From NCBI GenBank assembly GCA_021730945.1, contig JAKFYH010000041.1:1-42185 (forward strand): a stretch of 42,185 nt of DNA. Reading direction: 5' to 3'. The translations under genes were made by a program, and so were the position numbers. The notes beneath the pieces were generated by a model. That model was not told the origin of the DNA. It ran no database searches and worked only from the letters and a program-made list of their open reading frames with translations. Below, piece after piece: positions 18,646-34,857 of this stretch. Each line of letters opens with the position of its first letter. Positions within the stretch are counted from its first letter, which is position 1. The stretch is from Acidobacteriota bacterium (GTDB taxonomy: Bacteria; Acidobacteriota; Vicinamibacteria; Vicinamibacterales; UBA2999).

Positions 18646-19199
18646 GCACGCAGGTCTTTACGCTGGCCAATCAGCTCACCATCCTGCGGATGCTGCTGGT
18701 GCCGGTGTTTGTGCTGCTGACGCTCTACGGCAATGTCGGCTGGGCGCTCCTGACCTTCATGTTCGCCGGCCTCACCGACCTGCTGGATGGCCTCGCCGCG
18801 CGCAAGACCAGTGGCAAGACCGACCTGGGCGCCTGGCTCGATCCGATTGCCGACAAGCTCCTGATCGGCGCGACCTTCGTGGTGCTGACGCTGCCCAACA
18901 GCGGCCTGGTCAATCGCCTGCCGCTGTGGCTGACCGTCACCGTTATCAGCCGTGACGTCGGCATCCTGCTCACCGTCGCCATCGTCAATCTGGCCATCGG
19001 CCCGCGGACGTTCCGGCCCTCACCGCTCGGGAAGCTGGCGACGGCGGTGTTTGTGATGGCGTGCGTGGTGGTGATGTTCTTCAATTACCTGGGTCACACG
19101 TCGGTATGGGTGGACGTTGTGATCTGGCTGTCGCTGGCCATCACCCTGGCGTCGTGGGTGGACTACGTGTGGCGGCTGGCGCGGATCATTAACAAGTAG
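18642..19199 (+). CDS. pgsA: CDP-diacylglycerol-glycerol-3-phosphate phosphatidyltransferase-like
   Basis: 185 aa, multi-spanning. It has the CDP-alcohol phosphatidyltransferase motif D-G-x2-A-R-x8-G-x3-D-x3-D (DGLAARKTSGKTDLGAWLDPIADK). Length and N-terminus (LANQLTILRMLLVPVFVLL) fit PgsA, the phosphatidylglycerophosphate synthase of phosphatidylglycerol synthesis at the inner membrane. Another acceptor alcohol cannot be excluded. Its ATG overlaps the upstream lipoprotein stop. A large hairpin begins 2 nt after its TAG. Confidence 0.88.
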   Translation: MSTQVFTLANQLTILRMLLVPVFVLLTLYGNVGWALLTFMFAGLTDLLDGLAARKTSGKTDLGAWLDPIADKLLIGATFVVLTLPNSGLVNRLPLWLTVTVISRDVGILLTVAIVNLAIGPRTFRPSPLGKLATAVFVMACVVVMFFNYLGHTSVWVDVVIWLSLAITLASWVDYVWRLARIINK

Positions 19200-19200
19200 G

Positions 19201-19228
19201 CGCGGACCGGGCTGCGCCCGGGTCCGCG
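19201..19228 (+). terminator. Strong hairpin after pgsA, first stem of array A
   Basis: CGCGGACC (19201-19208) pairs with GGTCCGCG (19221-19228), and GGGC (19209-19212) with GCCC (19216-19219). The loop is TGC and one G is bulged. There is no T-run. It could end the hflX-pgsA transcript or protect its 3' end. Confidence 0.5.
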
Positions 19229-19298
19229 TGGGGCGCCTCGCTGCGCTCGGCGTGGGGCTCGGCGCTTTGCGCCTCGTAAGGCTCGCGCCCTTCGGCGC
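19201..19298 (+). repeat. Mini-hairpin array A (plus orientation)
   Basis: Array of short GC hairpins joined by conserved linkers of the type TCGTGGGGCTC. Stems: 19201-19228, GGCGC/GCGCC at 19261-19273 (loop TTT) and GCGCC/GGCGC at 19285-19298 (loop CTTC). Between the first two lies a 24-bp block (19230-19253) that recurs exactly, inverted, at 24849-24872 in array D. See arrays B, C and D. Confidence 0.8.
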
Positions 19299-19317
19299 TC
19301 GTGGGGAACAGTCCGAG

Positions 19318-19584
19318 GTGATCGGCACGGTCCACTCATTTCTGCGGTTTCCGTCCGGTTGGCGGTTTGGCGAGTTCATTCAGCCGCAGGTGTTCTTAAA
19401 CCTGCACGCGCGCGACGGACGTCGACGCGTGGCAGATATTGGACTACCGGAACTGCCGGTAGGCCGGGATGCCGACGGATTGTATGTGGTCGATTACGGC
19501 GAGAAGGGCCGTCAGGGCAGTCACCTCGAGGTGTCGATTCTGAGGATCCCGGTGAAGATTGGGACGGAGGGCTTCCGCCGCTAA
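19318..19584 (+). CDS. Orphan hypothetical ORF between inverted hairpin arrays
   Basis: 88 aa from a GTG at 19318. The frame stays open upstream into array A (to 19228), but that part only translates the repeat. The peptide is hydrophilic and looks beta-rich (for example PQVFLNLHARDGRRRVADIG and GLYVVDYGEKG), with no family I recognise. Third codon positions are visibly less GC-rich than in neighbouring genes. It may be a real small gene, a decaying gene or chance. It lies exactly between arrays A and B. Confidence 0.4.
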   Translation: MIGTVHSFLRFPSGWRFGEFIQPQVFLNLHARDGRRRVADIGLPELPVGRDADGLYVVDYGEKGRQGSHLEVSILRIPVKIGTEGFRR

Positions 19585-19592
19585 CCCAAGGA

Positions 19593-19686
19593 GGCCGGCT
19601 TGGCCGGCCGACCCCCACGATGGCGCATTAGCGCCGAGCCCTACGAGGCGCATGAGCGCCGAGCCCTACGAGCGGCGCAGCCGCTC
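19593..19686 (-). repeat. Mini-hairpin array B (minus orientation)
   Basis: Four perfect hairpins: GGCCGGC/GCCGGCC (19593-19609, loop TTG), GGCGC/GCGCC (19622-19635, loop ATTA), GGCGC/GCGCC (19647-19660, loop ATGA) and GAGCGGC/GCCGCTC (19670-19686, loop GCA). The linkers GAGCCCTACGA at 19636 and GAGCCCTACG at 19661 are the reverse complement of the array A linker, so A and B face each other across the 19318-19584 ORF. The deaD stop is 7 nt further on. Confidence 0.85.
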
Positions 19687-19692
19687 GCCCCC

Positions 19693-21006
19693 TTACGTCC
19701 GTCCGCGTCGGCCAGTCGGGCCGCTACGACGACCACCGGGCCCACGCGGACGCCATGACCCGCCGCCCCCGCTTCCGCCGGGCCGATGCCCGCCAGGACG
19801 CGCATGCGATCGGCCGCCGCCGGGCGGCCGATTGCCGAGGGGCGCGGCCGAACGATCGCCGGCCGCGACCGGGTGCGGCGTGTTGGCCACGAATCCCTCA
19901 AGCTTGCGGCGGGCGATGCCTCGACCGAGAAACTTCTCCAGCCGGCGCAGGTCGTCCATCTCGTCGTGCGAGACAAAGCTGATGGCGTCGCCAATGGCCT
20001 GGGCGCGTCCGGTCCGGCCAATGCGGTGCACGTAGTCTTCCGGCTGCGGCGGGAAGTCGTAGTTGATGACGTGGGAGATCCCGTCGACGTCGATGCCGCG
20101 CGCGGCGATGTCGGTGGCGACCAGGCAGCGGACCTCACCTGACTTGAAGCGCTTAAGCGCGAGGATGCGCTGGCCCTGGGTGCGGTTCGAGTGCAGCGTC
20201 GCGCACTTGATGCCGGCGCTCTCCAGCTTGCGGGCAATGCGATCGGCGCCGTGCTTGGTCCGCGAAAACACCAACACCGACTCCAGGGCCGCATCCTGCA
20301 GCAGGTGCACGAGGGCCGGCACCTTGGCCGCCTGCGACAGTTCGACAATCCACTGCGCGACCGCTTCGACTGGCGTCGATCGCGCGCCAATCTCGACCAG
20401 CACCGGGGTCTTGAGAAATTCCTTCGAGACCGCCTCGATCTCCTTCGACAGGGTGGCGGAGAACAGCAGGGTCTGGCGCACCTTGGGCGTGGCCGCGACA
20501 ATCTTGCGAATCGGCGGCAAAAATCCCATGTCGAGCATGCGGTCGGCCTCGTCCAGCACGAGCACCTGCAGGTCGGCGAAGTTGACGTGGCGCTGCTGCA
20601 TCAGATCCAGCAGCCGTCCGGGCGTGGCCACCGCGATGTCGACGCCGCGGCCGAGCGCCTGAATCTGCGGCCCTTCGCCGACGCCGCCGAAGATGGTGGC
20701 GTAGCGCAGGTGCAGGTGGCGGCCGTAGGCGCGGATGTTCTCCTCGATCTGTGCCACCAGCTCGCGGGTCGGCGCGACCACCAGCGCCCGCATGTGTTTC
20801 TGTGACGGCGACGCGCTCAGGCGCTCGAGCAGCGGCAGCACGAATGCCGCGGTCTTGCCGGTGCCGGTTTGCGCCACGCCAATGATGTCGCGGCCTTCGA
20901 GGATGACGGGAATGGCCTTGGCCTGGATCGGCGTCGGCTCGACGTAGCCCTGCTCCTGAAGTGCGGTGGTGATTTTCGGTCCGAGCCCGAGGGTCGTGAA
21001 CGGCAA
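19693..21006 (-). CDS. DEAD-box RNA helicase, RhlE-like
   Basis: 437 aa from a TTG directly after the upstream stop (TAGTTG). The start fits the family N-terminus (FTTLGL...YVEPTPIQ). All core motifs are present: Q motif, AQTGTGKT, PTRELVAQ, TPGR, DEAD, SAT, and HRIGRTGR of domain 2. The tail after about residue 375 is Gly/Arg/Pro-rich, which in RhlE-type proteins binds RNA nonspecifically. It should unwind short RNA duplexes in ribosome assembly or decay. Its place as last gene of a polysaccharide operon is unusual. Confidence 0.93.
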   Translation of the reverse strand: MPFTTLGLGPKITTALQEQGYVEPTPIQAKAIPVILEGRDIIGVAQTGTGKTAAFVLPLLERLSASPSQKHMRALVVAPTRELVAQIEENIRAYGRHLHLRYATIFGGVGEGPQIQALGRGVDIAVATPGRLLDLMQQRHVNFADLQVLVLDEADRMLDMGFLPPIRKIVAATPKVRQTLLFSATLSKEIEAVSKEFLKTPVLVEIGARSTPVEAVAQWIVELSQAAKVPALVHLLQDAALESVLVFSRTKHGADRIARKLESAGIKCATLHSNRTQGQRILALKRFKSGEVRCLVATDIAARGIDVDGISHVINYDFPPQPEDYVHRIGRTGRAQAIGDAISFVSHDEMDDLRRLEKFLGRGIARRKLEGFVANTPHPVAAGDRSAAPLGNRPPGGGRSHARPGGHRPGGSGGGGSWRPRGPGGRRSGPTGRRGRT

Positions 21007-21948
21007 CTACGAGCCCAGGACCTTTGCCCTGAAGTAGTCGATGGTGCGGCCGAGGCCCTCGTCCAGCGAGACTTTCGGTTCCCATCCAAGCAACGTGCGG
21101 GCGCGCGTGATGTCGGGCTGGCGCACCTTGGGGTCGTCGGTCGGCAGCGGCTTGTAGATAATCTTGCTGCTCGATCCGGTCATGGCAATGATCTGGCGCG
21201 CGATCTGCTCGATCGTCATCTCCTGCGGATTGCCGATGTTGATCGGATCGTTCTCCTTGGAGAGCATGAGCCGGATCAGGCCGTCGACCAGGTCGCTGAT
21301 GTAGCAGAAGCTGCGGGTCTGGCTGCCGTCGCCGAACACCGTGACATCCTGGTTGAGCAGGGCCTGCGACATGAACGCCGGTACCGCGCGGCCGTCGCGG
21401 ATGCGCATGCGGGGGCCATAGGTGTTGAAGATGCGGACGATCTTGGTGTCGAGGTTGTGAAAGCGCCGATAGGCGACGGTCATCGCCTCGGCAAACCGCT
21501 TGGCCTCGTCGTAAACGCCGCGCGGGCCGATCGGATTGACGTTGCCCCAGTAGGTTTCCTTCTGCGGGTGCTCGAGCGGATCGCCGTAGACCTCCGAGGT
21601 GGAGGCAATCATGAACACCGCGCCCTTCGCCTTGGCCAGGCCGAGCGCCTTGTGCGTGCCGAGCGCGCCGACCTTCAGGGTTGGAATCGGCAGTTCGAGA
21701 TAGTCGATCGGGCTGGCCGGACTGGCCCAGTGCAGCACGAAGTCCACCGGACCGTCGACGTCGATGTAGTTGGTGACGTCGTGGCGGATGAACTGGAAGT
21801 CGCGATCGCGCAGGTGCGCGATGTTGGCCAGGTCGCCGGTCAGCAGGTTGTCGATGCCGACCACCGAGAAGCCGCGGTCGAGCAGGGCCTCCGACAAGTG
21901 CGAGCCAATGAAGCCGGCGGCGCCGGTAATGACCACTCGTGGCATCAT
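21007..21948 (-). CDS. UDP-glucuronate decarboxylase (UDP-xylose synthase)
   Basis: 313 aa from the ATG at 21948, overlapping the upstream stop (ATGA). The next ATG at 21945 has better spacing from GGAG. An extended SDR with [10 protein letters not shown] for NAD binding, and STSEVYGDP plus the catalytic YDEAKR. The family hallmarks [18 protein letters not shown] and [11 protein letters not shown] identify UXS over other epimerase-like SDRs. It converts UDP-glucuronate to UDP-xylose, and its substrate would come from the Ugd encoded at 29109-30407. Confidence 0.92.
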
Positions 21949-23384
21949 GCCGCTCCGCGGTTGGGGGTAAGCACGCGCAGAAGAGTCAGCCACATGATCT
22001 TGATATCCAGGGTTACCGACCAGTTCTCGATGTAGTACAGGTCGTACTCGATTCGCTTCTCGAGCGAGGTATTGCCGCGCCAGCCGTTCACCTGGGCCCA
22101 GCCGGTGATGCCGGCCTTGACCTTGTGCCGCAGCATGTACTGCGGGATGCGGTGCTTGAATTGCTCGACGAAGAAGGGCCGCTCGGGCCGCGGCCCGACG
22201 ATCGACATCTCGCCCACCAGCACGTTCCAGAACTGCGGCCACTCGTCGAGGTCGTGCGCGCGCAGCCAGGCGCCGACACCGGTGGCGCGCGGATCGTTCT
22301 CGTCCGACCACACCGGGCCCTCCCGTTCGGCATCAATCGGCATGGTGCGGAACTTGTAGACGTTGAACTGCTTGCCGTCCAGCCCCATCCGCTCCTGGGT
22401 GTAGAAGATTGGTCCCGGCGATCCGCGCTTGATCAGCCACGAAATCAGCAACCCCGGAATTGCCATCGCCGCCAGCGCGCCCATCGAAATCAGGATGTCG
22501 AGCGTTCGCTTGATGAAGGCGCTCACGCCCTGGAGCGGTACGTCGTTCAGGTTGATCACCGGGACGCCGTCGAGGTCTTCGAGCCGCGCGCGCAGGGCGA
22601 TGAACTGCAGCAGATCCGGCACCACCTTGACGTCGACGCCTTCACGGCTGGTCGACTCGACCAGGTCGAGCAGCTTCATGTGCTCTTCGAGCGGCAAGGC
22701 CACGTAGAGATCGTCGATCTTCTCGTTGGCAACAATGTCGGCGGCCTCGCTGAGCGAGCCGAGCAGCGGCAGGCCGCGGTAGCCCAGGTGATCGCCGCCC
22801 GCCTTGTCGTCGACGAAGCCGACCAACTGGTAGCCCAGCTCGCGGTGTTCGAGCATGCGGTCGGCCACGACCCGGCCCAGTTCGCCGGCCCCGGCAATCA
22901 GGATGCGCCGCAGGCCGACGCCAGCCAGCCAGCGCCGTTCGAGCGCCTCGCGAATAAACTTGCGCGACAAATAGCCGAACGCGATGTTGCAGACCAGGAA
23001 CAGGCCCCAGACCAGGCGTGAGACCTCGAACGCGCCGATGTTGCGCTGCACGTCAGACGCGTAGTAGGCCTGGAAGTACAGGGTGCTGACGATGCCGAAG
23101 ACCACGGCGAAGATGCTGCCGACCAGCACGTTGAAGAAGTCATCAATGCGCGAGCGGCCGCGGCGCAGGCGGTACAAGCCCTGGAAGTGAAAGCCGATCG
23201 GCACCACCAGGGCGACAAACGGCAGCACCATGAAGTACTGCTCGATCGGCGGCTGGCCGCGGGTGATCTCGAACAGCCCGGCTTCAAAGCGCAGGACGTA
23301 GGCCAGCACGAAGGCCACCATGCCCATCACGGCGTCGGTGCCGACGTGAAAGGCCACCAGCAGGCGGTTATGTCGCCTTACCAT
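21945..23384 (-). CDS. Polyprenyl-phosphate sugar-1-phosphate transferase (WcaJ/WbaP-like)
   Basis: 479 aa from the ATG at 23384, overlapping the upstream glycosyltransferase gene by 7 nt. There are four N-terminal membrane helices (to about residue 145), a Rossmann-type CoA-binding-like domain ([20 protein letters not shown]), another membrane segment, and the C-terminal catalytic Bac_transf domain ([55 protein letters not shown]-type end). It starts glycan assembly by moving a sugar-1-phosphate from a UDP-sugar onto undecaprenyl phosphate. Confidence 0.94.
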
Positions 23385-24514
23385 CGGGTCCCCGCCGGCG
23401 CGCGCATCGTGTCGTCCACGATCTGTTCGACCTCGGTCACGAACCGGCCGCGCGAAAAGGTTTCGGCGTGAGCGCGAATGCGCGCCGGATTCCACGGCGT
23501 CGCCGCGGCGCGCTGCAGGGCGCCGGCCAGCGAGTCGACGGTACCTTCGCCGAACAGCACGCCGGTCTCGCCGTCAATCACGGTATCCAGGGCGCCGCCG
23601 CGCCCAAAGGCGACCACCGGGCGGCCACACGCTTGCGCCTCGACCGGCACGATACCAAAATCCTCTTCACCGGGAAGGATGGCCGCGGTGCAGCTGCGAT
23701 ACAGCGTGCGAATCTCGTCGTCTGAACGCCAGCCGGCCAGTTCGATGCCGTCACCGGTGAGCCGCTCGAGTGCCTGGCGTTCCGGGCCGCTGCCGACCAC
23801 GGTGAGGCGGACGCCCGCCCGCCTGGCCGCCATCATGGCCAGATCGACACGCTTGTAGGGCACCAGGGCCGACACCACGAGGAAATGAGGCGACGCGCTC
23901 ACCGAAGGCTCCGATGGCGGTGGGCTGGCGGCGTCAGGGGCGTAGTACTCCGTATCGACCGGTGGATAGACAAGGGTCGACTCACGATTATAGTACAGCG
24001 CGATCCTCCGCGCAACATATTGAGAGATAGCGAGATAGCGGTGTACCCGGCCCTCGGTGGCGCGGTCCCACCGGGCCAGCCCGGCCAGTACCGGCCGGAG
24101 CAGGGCGCTTGGCAGCGCCCCCACCCGATCGGGGCCGAAATAGGCGTCGAACTGGTCCCAGGCGTAGCGCATCGGGGTGAGGCAATAGCAGAGGTGGCGG
24201 GCGCGGCCCGTGACCACCACCGACTTGGCGGCACAGTGGCTGGTGCTGATCACCAGGTCGTAGTCATCGAGGTCGAACTGCTCGATCGCCATGGGGAACA
24301 GCGGCAGGTATTGCCGGTAGAGCCTGCCGGCCATGGGCAGCCAGTGGATCGGCGACTTCTTCACCAGCCGCCGTTCGATCACCGGCGTGACCGTGCCCTT
24401 CAGGTAGACCAGGGTAAACAGATCCGCGGCGGGGAAGACCTCGCAAAACACCTCGAGGGCCTTCTCGCCGCCACGCATGCCGGTGATCCAGTCGTGGATG
24501 AGGGCGACGCGCAC
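23378..24514 (-). CDS. Glycosyltransferase family 4, WbaZ-like
   Basis: 378 aa from a GTG at 24514. N-terminus RVALIHDWITGMRGGEKALE is typical of WbaZ-like GT4 enzymes. The GT-B C-terminal domain has a donor-binding LPGEEDFGIVPVEAQACG, an E-x7-E type motif. It adds a sugar to the lipid-linked glycan in the cytoplasm, and donor and acceptor are not predictable. A TATGAT -10 element (24526-24521) sits 6 nt before the GTG with no Shine-Dalgarno, so a leaderless transcript is possible. First gene of the wcaJ-like/uxs/deaD unit. Confidence 0.88.
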   Translation of the reverse strand: MRVALIHDWITGMRGGEKALEVFCEVFPAADLFTLVYLKGTVTPVIERRLVKKSPIHWLPMAGRLYRQYLPLFPMAIEQFDLDDYDLVISTSHCAAKSVVVTGRARHLCYCLTPMRYAWDQFDAYFGPDRVGALPSALLRPVLAGLARWDRATEGRVHRYLAISQYVARRIALYYNRESTLVYPPVDTEYYAPDAASPPPSEPSVSASPHFLVVSALVPYKRVDLAMMAARRAGVRLTVVGSGPERQALERLTGDGIELAGWRSDDEIRTLYRSCTAAILPGEEDFGIVPVEAQACGRPVVAFGRGGALDTVIDGETGVLFGEGTVDSLAGALQRAAATPWNPARIRAHAETFSRGRFVTEVEQIVDDTMRAPAGTRW

Positions 24515-24539
24515 TTGGGGATCATACAGGGGCTCGCGG

Positions 24540-24639
24540 CGCCCCGTGTGGGGCGGGGGCTTCGCCCCCGTAGGGCTCGCGGCTGGCGCCGCTCGTGGGG
24601 CTCGGGGCTTCGCCCCTTGTAGGGTCGGCGCTTCGCGCC
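24540..24639 (+). repeat. Mini-hairpin array C (plus orientation)
   Basis: Five hairpins: CGCCCC/GGGGCG (24540-24555), CGGGGGC/GCCCCCG (24554-24570, loop TTC), GCGGC/GCCGC (24579-24592), GGGGC/GCCCC (24604-24616, loop TTC) and GGCGC/GCGCC (24627-24639, loop TTC). Linkers TAGGGCTC, TCGTGGGGCTC and TTGTAGGGTC repeat the array A linker. Stems differ between units yet always pair. Confidence 0.85.
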
Positions 24640-24651
24640 TCGTGGGGGGGC

Positions 24652-24680
24652 TTGACCCAAGCAGACGTCACGCGGATGAT
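24652..24680 (+). promoter_or_regulatory. Promoter of the TatA-like peptide ORF
   Basis: TTGACC (24652-24657), 17-bp spacer, GATGAT (24675-24680). The predicted transcript start is at or beside the ATG at 24687, so the mRNA would be leaderless. Confidence 0.4.
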
Positions 24681-24686
24681 TCGTCC

Positions 24687-24773
24687 ATGCCCGCCGGGTT
24701 GTCCCTGTCGCAGCTTGTGCTCTTGATGGTGGTGGCCCTGATCGTGTTCGGCCCGCGGTATCGCTCTCGTTGA
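24687..24773 (+). CDS. 28-aa TatA-like peptide (fragment or microprotein)
   Basis: One hydrophobic helix (LSLSQLVLLMVVALIVFG) followed by the FGP hinge and a basic end (RYRSR). This matches the first 20 to 25 residues of TatA/TatB, membrane subunits of the twin-arginine translocase, but the amphipathic helix and tail are missing. The reading frame stops 5 nt before array D, so a tatA gene may have been cut there. Alternatively it is a complete single-span microprotein. It has a candidate promoter and sits exactly between arrays C and D. No tatC or other tat gene is in the window. Confidence 0.4.
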   Translation: MPAGLSLSQLVLLMVVALIVFGPRYRSR

Positions 24774-24778
24774 CCCGA

Positions 24779-24872
24779 CGAGGGGCGCAGCCTCGAGCCC
24801 CACGACCGCGAAGCGGTCGCCCCACGAGGCGCGTGAGCGCCAAGCCCTACGCCGAGCGCAGCGAGGCGCCCC
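24779..24872 (-). repeat. Mini-hairpin array D (minus orientation)
   Basis: Hairpins CGAGG/CCTCG (24779-24795), CGACCGC/GCGGTCG (24803-24819, loop GAA) and GGCGC/GCGCC (24828-24841, loop GTGA). Linkers AGCCCCA and AAGCCCTACG are array A/C linkers inverted. 24849-24872 is an exact inverted copy of the 24-bp block at 19230-19253. With array C it brackets the TatA-like peptide. Confidence 0.85.
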
Positions 24873-25985
24873 CTACCGGTTCGCGACTTCCATGTAGATC
24901 TCGTGAATCTTGGCGACGCTCTGCTTCCACGAAAAATCGTGGGCGCGCGCCAGGCCCTTGGCGATCAGGTCGTGGCGCACCGCTTCGTCGGTCACGGCAC
25001 TGACAATGCCGCCGGCAATGGCCTCGGCATCGTAGGGGTCCACCAGCAGCGCCGCGCCGCCCGCGACCTCGGGCAGCGACGAGACATTCGAGGTGACCAC
25101 CGGCGTGCCGCACGCCATGGCCTCGAGCGGCGGCAGGCCGAAGCCCTCATAAAGCGACGGGAACACGAATGCGCGCGCGAGCCGGTAGAACGCCGCCAGC
25201 GTCTCCTGCGGCTGGAAGCCGAGGAAGCGCACGTGCTTGTCGAGCTTGTGGCGATGCACGGATTGCCGCAGCACCGGATACTTCGACAACTCGTCGCCGA
25301 TGATGATCAGTTTGAGATCATCGGGGGCGTGGCGCCTGGCGAGGGCGAAGGCTTCCACCAGCCGCTCGACGTTCTTGTGCGGCTTGATGTTGCCGACATA
25401 GAGCACGAACGGATGGTCCAACTGGTAGCGCTGCCGCGTCAGGTCCATCCGAGTCGGGTCGGCGGCGCCGAGGAAGCGCTCGTCGATGGCGTTGTAAATG
25501 ACCTCGACCCGTTCGGGCGGGATGTCGAAGAACCGGAGGATGTCGCGCTTCGACGCTTCCGACACCGTGAGCACGCGGTCGGCCGTGCGGGTCGCACTCC
25601 ACATCGAGGCCTTCGCGTAGGCGAAGGCCAGCCGGCTGGGCAGGTACTGCGGGAACATCAAGTGGATGCAGTCGTGGATGGTCACGACCGAACGGCAGCG
25701 AATGGCCGGCGGCAGCACGTAGTGCGGCTCGTGTACCAGTTGGACGCGCTCCCGCGCCAGCGCCAGCGGGATCCGGAATTGCTCCGCCACTGAATAGGTG
25801 GGAGCCGTCTCCGGCACCATGCGGAAATTGCGCCCCAGGACCTCGCCCGACTCCAGATCATCCGGGCGGCACAGCACCACGTACTCCGTCGCCTGATCGC
25901 GGCGCGACAGCTCGATCAGGATGTTGCGGATGTAGGTGCCGATGCCGAAGTCGCGCAGTTTACGCGCGTCGATCGCGATGCGCAT
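24873..25985 (-). CDS. Glycosyltransferase family 4
   Basis: 370 aa from the ATG at 25985 ([22 protein letters not shown]), 2 nt after the upstream stop. GT-B fold: the N-terminal acceptor domain has HEPHYVLPP and [13 protein letters not shown], and the C-terminal donor domain has [10 protein letters not shown] and [21 protein letters not shown] (E-x7-E). It probably transfers mannose, glucose or a related sugar to a surface glycan. The exact donor is not readable. It is the distal gene of the four-gene minus unit 29013-24873 and ends 1 nt from array D. Confidence 0.9.
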
Positions 25986-25987
25986 TG

Positions 25988-26818
25988 TCAGTCCGCGATC
26001 GACTTGCCGGTCAGCTTCAGGTAGACGCGAAGCAGTCCGGCCCAGCGCGGCAGGTGCTTCCGGTAATAGGCGATCTGGCTCTTGCGGTAGAGCCGCTCGG
26101 TCGCCGGGTTGCGAGCCGCCGACCTGCCGCGGTGATGCAGCACCTCGGCGCCGGCTACGTACAGCACGGTGCGGCCGCGCTTGCGCATCGCCATGCACAG
26201 GTCGACATCCTCGGTGTACATGAAATACCGCTCGTCGAGCAGGCCGACCGCTTCGAGGTCGGGGCGGCGAATCACCATGCAGGCGCCGCTGACCCACGCC
26301 ACTTCCCGCGCCTGCCGGCTCAACTTGTCGATCTTGCGGACAATGCGGCGGACCTTGCGGTGGTAGAGCGTCGTCAGCACCTTGCGCTTGAGTTCATTCC
26401 AGGGGCCGATCGGTTCGCCCCAGGACAGTTCCGGAAAGCCGCGTTCGCTCAGCATCCGGGCGCCGGCGATGGCGGCATCCGGGTGGGCCGCCAAGCCGCG
26501 CACCAGCGTTTGGATGGCCCCGGGCGGGGCCACCGTGTCGGGATTGATCAACAGCACGTAGTCACCACGGGTGGCGCGGATGCCCAGGTTGTTGGCCGAC
26601 GAGAAGCCGACATTGGCCGGAGACGCAATCAACTGCACGCTGGGCCACTGTTGCCGCACCAGGTCCGCGGTGCCGTCGGTCGAAGCGTTGTCGACCACGG
26701 TGATGGTGGTCGGAAAGGGGGCGGTGTGGCCGACCAGCGAGTCGAGACAGGGGCCAATTTCCGTGGCGGAGTTGTAGGTGACGACGATGATCGCCAGTGA
26801 GAACAGGTTATCGGCCAA
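25988..26818 (-). CDS. Glycosyltransferase family 2, rhamnosyltransferase-like
   Basis: 276 aa from a TTG overlapping the upstream stop by 11 nt. The GT-A fold is visible in AIIVVTYNSATEIGPCLDSL, VVDNASTDGT, the DxD-like LINPDTVAPP and VSGACMVIRRPDLEAVG...DERYFMYTEDVDLCMAMRKRG. The last segments are typical of WbbL/WfgD-like rhamnosyl- or related transferases. The C-terminus is basic with amphipathic helices and may touch the membrane. Part of the glycan-assembly operon. Confidence 0.9.
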   Translation of the reverse strand: MADNLFSLAIIVVTYNSATEIGPCLDSLVGHTAPFPTTITVVDNASTDGTADLVRQQWPSVQLIASPANVGFSSANNLGIRATRGDYVLLINPDTVAPPGAIQTLVRGLAAHPDAAIAGARMLSERGFPELSWGEPIGPWNELKRKVLTTLYHRKVRRIVRKIDKLSRQAREVAWVSGACMVIRRPDLEAVGLLDERYFMYTEDVDLCMAMRKRGRTVLYVAGAEVLHHRGRSAARNPATERLYRKSQIAYYRKHLPRWAGLLRVYLKLTGKSIAD

Positions 26819-34115: not shown

Positions 34116-34142
34116 CGGCCCGACACCGATGGTGTGCCGGGG

Positions 34143-34240
34143 CCGCAGATGACACAGATGACGCAGAGGGGCGGCCGGGGCCGCAGATGACACAGATGAC
34201 GCAGAGGGGCGGCCGGGGCCGCAGATGACACAGATGACTC
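34143..34240. repeat. 38-bp tandem repeat, core CCGCAGATGACACAGATGAC
   Basis: Units begin at 34143, 34181 and 34219. The first two are complete and identical over 38 bp, and the third diverges after ATGAC into the gmk coding sequence. The core is the reverse complement of the 2197-2331 repeat, so this is a dispersed family in both orientations. Its ATG triplets supply the first in-frame start codons of gmk (34225 and 34234). Confidence 0.9.
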
Positions 34241-34857
34241 AGAAGGAGCGCGGGCTGCTGTTCATCATCTCGGCCGCCTCGGGGACCGGCAAGACGACGC
34301 TGGTGGAGCGGCTGGTGCAGATTCTGCCCAACCTGCGCATGTCGCGGTCGTATACCTCGCGGCCGGCGCGGGCCGGCGAGCGCCAGGGCGTCGACTATAA
34401 TTTTGTCAGCCGCGACCAGTTCGACCAGATGATCGCGCGCGGCGAATTTCTCGAGTGGGCCGATGTCTTCGGCAACCTCTACGGGACCTCGCGCGTCGAT
34501 ACCGAGCGGTTGCTGGCCTCGGGTCAGGATGTCGTGCTGACGATCGATGTGCAGGGCGTGTTCCAGGTGAAGGCGGCCGGCATCGACTACACCGGCATCT
34601 TCGTGCTGCCGCCGTCCTTCGAAGTGCTCGAACGCCGGCTGCGCGGCCGCAGTGCCGACAGCGAGGCGTCGATCCAGCGCCGGCTGCAGACCGCGCGGCG
34701 CGAGGTGCTGCACTATGCCGAGTACGAGTTCGTGGTCATTAACGACCAGCTCGAGCCGGCCACCGTGCGCCTGCAGGAGATTATTGCCGCCGCCCGCTCG
34801 CGGACGCCGCGGATGCAGCCGATTGCGCTCAAGATTATCGAGAGCTTTCACGGGTAA
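34225..34857 (+). CDS. gmk: Guanylate kinase
   Basis: 210 aa from 34225 (207 from the ATG at 34234). P-loop SGTGKTT (19-25), GMP-binding SYTSRPARAGERQGVDYNFV and GEFLEWADVFGNLYGT. It phosphorylates GMP to GDP. Both ATG candidates lie inside the third unit of the upstream repeat. AAGGAG occurs at 34243-34248, within the gene, 6 nt before a CTG codon that would begin at the family core (LLFIISAASG), so a non-AUG start is conceivable. Confidence 0.93.
   Translation: MTQMTQKERGLLFIISAASGTGKTTLVERLVQILPNLRMSRSYTSRPARAGERQGVDYNFVSRDQFDQMIARGEFLEWADVFGNLYGTSRVDTERLLASGQDVVLTIDVQGVFQVKAAGIDYTGIFVLPPSFEVLERRLRGRSADSEASIQRRLQTARREVLHYAEYEFVVINDQLEPATVRLQEIIAAARSRTPRMQPIALKIIESFHG

Follow-up and report, generated by a model that had tools for sequence, protein, structure and literature searches.

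The window analyzed here, a stretch of 42,185 nt from an Acidobacteriota genome, raises the question of whether a 28-residue open reading frame (ORF) that resembles the N-terminus of TatA, and that lies between two glycosyltransferase genes (GT1 and GT2), is a gene in its own right or the leftover of one. As read from the sequence, the region from GT1 to GT2 consists of array C, a core of ~125 nt containing the ORF (mini-TatA) and array D, which is inverted relative to C (Table 1). A sequence-only reading of the locus had described a TTGACC-N17-GATGAT promoter, a TatA-type helix ending at FGP and a stop codon some 5 nt ahead of array D. Its coordinates, the promoter-like letters and the helix up to FGP were all confirmed by direct reading and profile matches, and the coordinates place the stop where it had put it. 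Arrays C and D share inverted-repeat pairs of 37, 33, 27 and 14 nt, and the products of GT1 and GT2 both match Glycos_transf_1 in a profile search. At the RNA level, the ORF is unstructured (z 1.52 vs shuffles) and the folding advantage of arrays C and D over shuffles is only mild (z -0.95 to -2.07). No intrinsic terminator was found in 24500-24900, and an Rfam scan over 19000-26000 returned two matches at E≤1, both below the gathering score. The genome of the window is referred to as G000, and the other genomes of the same genus (nine in all) as G001-G008.

Table 1. Features of the region between and including the two glycosyltransferase genes (window coordinates).
Feature	Position	Strand	Evidence and remarks
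GT1 glycosyltransferase, 378 aa	23378-24514	-	TATGAT at 24526-24521, 6 nt before its GTG start
Array C	about 24540-24650	+	Head-to-tail units of ~24 nt: linker CTCGT[AG]GGGCTCG plus short variable palindrome, e.g. GGGGCTTCGCCCC
Promoter-like TTGACC-17-GATGAT, 6 nt before ATG (leaderless arrangement)	24652-24680	+	Sequence and promoter scan; TTGACC 24652-24657, 17-nt spacer, GATGAT 24675-24680, then 6 nt
Mini-TatA ORF, 28 aa, MPAGLSLSQLVLLMVVALIVFGPRYRSR and stop	24687-24773	+	Sequence, profile matches, G001 homologue, codon test; ATG at 24687, TGA 24771-24773
Array D, inverted relative to C	about 24776-24872	-	Minus-strand start directly after the TAG stop of GT2
GT2 glycosyltransferase, 370 aa from ATG	24873-25985	-	Ancestral upstream neighbour of GT1

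Mini-TatA scores 20.7 bits against PF02416 (TatA_B_E; cut-off 21, E 0.00025), with residues 5-23 aligned to profile positions 1-19, and its homologue in G001, described below, scores 17.9 bits against the same cut-off. The best NCBIfam match of mini-TatA is the TatA model NF011430 (E 2.8e-5, 23.5 bits, cut-off 62). For each of the two peptides, the best Pfam and the best NCBIfam match is a TatA model, and both peptides score below the curated cut-offs of all TatA models. When the whole G000 genome was searched in six frames with PF02416, mini-TatA ranked third (E 0.0019, in this one genome) behind two separate TatA-type genes on other contigs (79.2 and 64.8 bits); G001 also carries separate TatA-type genes (79.3 and 66.9 bits). 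That tatA might be present only as the mini-TatA fragment was ruled out, as PF02416 finds matches above its cut-off in 42 of the 43 family genomes, two of them in G000.

Like TatA/TatE proteins (PF02416, TIGR01411, NF011430), mini-TatA has an N-terminal transmembrane helix, a polar residue near its start (a Gln near the N-terminal end of the helix) and an FGP hinge followed by a basic residue. Both peptides contain a strongly hydrophobic stretch of 17 residues (Kyte-Doolittle 2.68 and 2.71), and the FG(P/T) hinge is present as FGPR in G000 and G001 and as GPR in a remnant in G006. In mini-TatA, the hinge is followed by a short basic tail, RxRxR. Unlike TatA/TatE, mini-TatA lacks the amphipathic helix and the C-terminal region, since the stop comes 5 codons after FGP in both G000 and G001; it also differs in its length of 25-28 aa, in scoring below curated cut-offs and in adjoining glycosyltransferase genes. 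According to passages of one published account, TatA and TatB need both a membrane anchor and an amphipathic helix (PMC13186574), and therefore mini-TatA should not act as TatA. Judged by its predicted architecture, mini-TatA is not a TatA, the amphipathic helix being absent.

The same site was compared across relatives through GT2, which was sought in 60 genomes including G000 and matched at E≤1e-60 in 56. The best 30 of 59 listed GT2 matches were examined with 1.5-kb flanks where the contig allowed, and 29 of these loci were from other genomes. A second copy of mini-TatA at E≤1e-5 was present in one of the 29, in G001 (MIPLPQLVLLLVLALIVFGPRPRLR and stop), where it adjoins GT2 in the same orientation and is bracketed by inverted arrays of G001's own version of the repeat; about 75 nt of other sequence separates its stop from the array. 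Nucleotide comparison alone also recovers this copy (50/72, E 8e-7), and among 80 named loci mini-TatA stands beside GT2 in one (L154, the G001 contig). At this site, G006 has one gene with a PIN domain (55 bits) and one that is VapB-like (25.7 bits, short of the 27.9 cut-off), at L025 2673-3307. After these genes, and directly against the array, lies a remnant in which 35/41 nt match the end of the mini-ORF and the start of the array (GPRYRCR and stop; E 3e-7 in 43 kb). The tail thus reads GPRYRSR, GPRYRCR or GPRPRLR across the three species, each time followed by the stop. The site differs in the other genomes: G003 has no insert, with GT2 and GT1 overlapping (TAATG); G004 and G008 have a Y1_Tnp gene directly beside GT2; and, by eye, G007 has VapC-like sequence between the contig start and the array, without the remnant, G002 has transposase-like sequence and G005 has other genes. 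Nucleotide scans found no trace of the insert sequence at the site in G002, G003, G004, G005, G007 or G008 (best E 0.11 and 0.40).

Over 24 aligned codons, the G000 and G001 copies differ at 26/72 nt, 15 of the 26 at third positions, and at 7/24 residues; identity is 17/24 in the ORF frame vs 8/23 and 5/23 in the other frames. The Nei-Gojobori proportions are pS 0.76 and pN 0.19. A neutral simulation (20,000 runs with the same number of random changes, stops disallowed) gave a mean of 14.2 residue changes, with 7 or fewer at P 0.00015 and the third-position count at P 0.0012. The start, stop and basic tail are kept without frameshift in both genomes. This codon pattern suggests selection on the peptide, in a test that compares two sequences of which the homologue was first noticed through its protein match. 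Part of the divergence between G000 and G001 could predate the truncation, which is less likely given the stop and tail shared by three species. A chance ORF is ruled out by the same-site homologue and the frame-specific conservation. The sequence-only reading had left a choice between a tatA gene truncated by array insertion and a captured microprotein gene, and the second option gains from the shared site, the array bracketing in a second species and the codon pattern. Tentatively, then, we prefer to read the insert as a small inherited coding gene whose product would be a TatA-derived, helix-only microprotein that enters Tat assemblies and tunes them, an explanation that we hold as possible and with less than even confidence.

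No second promoter-like site was found on either strand in 24500-24900, where shuffled sequence gave a mean of 0.0. The leaderless arrangement was assessed in 159 kb of G000 with four hexamer classes and two start codons. Strict -10-like hexamers lay exactly 6 nt before ATG/GTG in 7 cases, against a mean of 0.84 at the other 25 spacings (Poisson P 2.8e-5, uncorrected, for one of eight hexamer-start combinations tried), and TA...T hexamers before ATG gave a low peak at 6-9 nt. The remaining combinations showed no excess at 6 nt in these 159 kb, including the NATGAT class to which the actual mini-TatA hexamer belongs (1 case 6 nt before ATG). In the G001 copy, a Shine-Dalgarno-like GAGGAG stands in place of the G000 arrangement, such that promoter and start context differ between the species. 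The start codon that the sequence-only reading placed at the predicted transcript start is plausible in light of the excess of strict hexamers at 6 nt, whereas the NATGAT class and the GAGGAG of G001 speak against it; leaderless expression of mini-TatA is possible. The VapB promoter of G006 and the mini-TatA promoter both read TTGACC-17-NATGAT-6-ATG, and by eye the letters between agree about as well as by chance. A second leaderless-looking start lies beside array C, where TATGAT stands 6 nt before the GTG of GT1 (window 24512-24526), and it recurs in G006.

Array-like repeats recur well beyond this site: the 343-bp stretch has 86 matches at E≤1, the window included. The linker motif CTCGTRGGRSTCG was counted at 49 sites in G000 (6 for the reversed-pattern control), 57 in G001 (control 3) and 24 in G006 (control 5), compared with 2 to 15 in the six remaining genomes of the genus (control 0 to 9). 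The array-rich genomes are those with mini-TatA or its remnant (3/3 vs 0/6, Fisher P 0.012), a grouping of nine genomes defined after the counts were known. Arrays with two or more motif matches, 27 in all, were surveyed for their position in the window and in 34 G000 loci, which were taken from the listed matches and include part of a set of 142 places, with open frames called mechanically; arrays A (described below), C and D fell outside this two-motif filter. Nineteen of the 27 begin no more than about 110 nt past the stop codon of an open frame with at least 150 codons. The stop is TAG in 13 of the 19, and in 8 of the 13 it continues as TAGGGC, like the repeat; these are raw counts not set against general stop usage, and one of the 13 (L138) sits inside its array.

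In these respects, the arrays recall GT[AG]G REP elements and BIMEs. Part of one report has GTAG REPs mainly downstream of coding regions, where they often supply the TAG stop (PMC3733652), and part of another describes a 5' GT[AG]G in canonical REPs (PMC6006769). The arrays likewise carry a GT[AG]G tag that precedes a short palindrome, are dispersed in many copies, form pairs in opposite orientation and lie mostly after gene ends, where they often give the TAG stop; they are unlike those elements in being built of head-to-tail 24-nt units with variable palindromes. Given the tag, the palindromes, the gene-end location and the TAG stops, the arrays are best filed as REP-like, and by their makeup they would thus resemble an already known kind of element. 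G000 has 5 Y1_Tnp matches, and no array motif was found in the 1.5-kb flanks at the three of these five loci that were scanned; across the genus, the motif occurred at 1 of 20 tyrosine-transposase loci scanned, as a single match in G007. The titles and opening lines of abstracts among the papers listed, mostly outside the subscription literature, describe neither a helix-only TatA gene nor these arrays.

The rival that survives best takes mini-TatA for the 5' part of an old tatA-like gene that no longer functions and was stranded between REP-like arrays as these expanded. Support for it comes from the same window, where arrays A (about 19204-19306) and B (about 19590-19690) bracket a stretch of 88 codons. 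In five relatives, this A/B core aligns with the C-terminal end of an open frame, of 419 codons in G001, 408 in G002, 434 in G036, 397 in G013 and 395 in G064; it was matched in 6 of 42 other family genomes, the sixth of which, G032, does not have the same protein in the translated frame. The A/B core is a C-terminal remnant of a protein of ~400 aa, and by these matches the arrays do bracket gene remnants.

The distribution of mini-TatA can also be read in favor of debris, as most relatives lack the gene and G006 has it in broken form. The mini-TatA form was found in 2 of 43 family genomes and in 2 of 162 order genomes (71.9 bits in G000 and 53 bits in G001; the other listed matches reach at most 31 bits). 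A phylum sample of 396 genomes yielded no further copy at E≤1e-6, the matches being G000 and two full-length TatAs, and there was no mini-TatA match in phages and plasmids. Pattern searches returned 170 stretches in wider genome contigs and 146 in viral contigs, and none was confirmed by tblastn at E 1e-3, a threshold that a 28-aa query can fail and by which the G001 contig was missed too in the former set. Of the order matches listed, four whose open frames are short were inspected: G102 (cut by the contig end) and G056 are full TatA starts, G093 (L261, G093:C950) has a TatA-like frame, MHSSFRSIGLPELVILFLIALILFGPRAFGPGGPFSK, that stops or drifts right after the hinge, and G151 (L262, G151:C31) has a drifting second TatA-like copy beside a full TatA. 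The latter two belong to other families of the order and are unlike mini-TatA in sequence; frames ending at the hinge suggest that TatA fragments do arise. The short family frames in G015 and G022 are complete second TatAs. The debris reading stands at odds with the codon pattern between G000 and G001, and with the start, stop and basic tail that both retain in frame. Because arrays A and B bracket a remnant, and because mini-TatA has two intact copies only, we still regard it as a serious, if doubtful, possibility.

The age of the insert can be approached through GT2 and GT1. The sequence-only reading had the insert split two glycosyltransferase transcription units, and the split of the two genes is supported by the order of the pair elsewhere, since in 76 of the 80 named loci GT2 has GT1 downstream of it, and in 53 of the 80 the gap is at most 50 nt. 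The pair was therefore adjacent before the insert separated GT2 from GT1. In the GT2 tree, G000, G005, G006 and (G007, G003) fall together, G001 falls with G002, and G004 with G008. With mini-TatA in G000 and G001 and its remnant in G006, this tree calls either for a single gain that predates the split of the first two clades, followed by several losses, or for transfer between species. G003, with its GT2-GT1 overlap, is nested within a clade, and thus under one ancient gain this genome must have undergone precise loss or recombination.

Toxins offer a further alternative. Peptides of the type I toxin kind are small, with a single hydrophobic helix and a charged tail. Mini-TatA matches this class in all three features, and its site carries PIN-domain and VapB-like genes in G006 and VapC-like sequence in G007 (by eye), so the insert might encode a small hydrophobic toxin at a VapBC-like site, with its TatA likeness due to descent or to chance. 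The consistent TatA matches, TatA-type FGP hinge included, count against such a toxin, as does the promoter scan, in which the single promoter type scanned occurs on the + strand only in 24500-24900, with none for an antisense RNA; we consider this reading improbable. More improbable still is the other origin offered by the sequence-only reading, in which array D would have inserted recently into a full tatA copy at this place in G000 and cut it short. Such an event would fit a TatA-like frame that ends 5 nt before the array and is disfavoured by the short form in G001 with its separate spacer, by the same 3' end and stop in G006, and by the two TatA-type genes found elsewhere in G000, of which the one at C31 is just 41% identical to mini-TatA over 22 residues.

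Under the preferred reading of an inherited microprotein gene, mini-TatA would have kept the transmembrane helix with its Gln, the FGP hinge and the RxRxR tail and lost the amphipathic helix. It would be transcribed from its own promoter as a leaderless or nearly leaderless mRNA. TatA has an N-out/C-in topology, and mini-TatA may insert into the membrane in the same way. It could then join the helices of TatA or TatBC, thereby limiting, tuning or blocking Tat assembly. In an NMR study of the TatA dimer, the transmembrane helices are reported to make the stronger contacts with each other (PMC4121141), and a helix-only form could therefore still bind TatA/TatBC assemblies. The REP-like arrays at gene ends that bracket mini-TatA may insulate its transcript from that of GT2. 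The arrays would also be likely boundaries where cargo was gained and exchanged, with mini-TatA in two species and VapBC-like genes in two others. A bolder version would make mini-TatA a dedicated TatA decoy, that is, a selected leaderless gene carried as cargo between REP-like arrays that regulates the export of folded proteins, at a site that serves as an exchange point for small cargo; this version seems unlikely. Should the peptide be produced, it would be a helix-only TatA of natural origin, and it could serve as a tool for asking what share of TatA assembly the helix by itself accounts for and whether decoy subunits are used by cells to control the Tat pathway. It would likewise show that gene finders, with their usual length limits, can miss a conserved gene, and that in this Acidobacteriota genus REP-like arrays enclose a conserved mini-gene in one place and a gene remnant in another.

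Repeats of other kinds occur in these genomes as well. In G000, a palindromic repeat of another type, GAGAGCGACGGCTTTAGCCGTCGCT, stands in many copies around a tyrosine-transposase gene that it flanks (L257, G000:C10:45507 region), in a REPtron-like arrangement. The window itself contains a tandem 38-nt repeat with GCAGATGACACAGATGACGCAGA at 34136-34243, and in G036 (L033) a similar repeat, GCAGATGACGCAG, fills the gap between GT2 and GT1.
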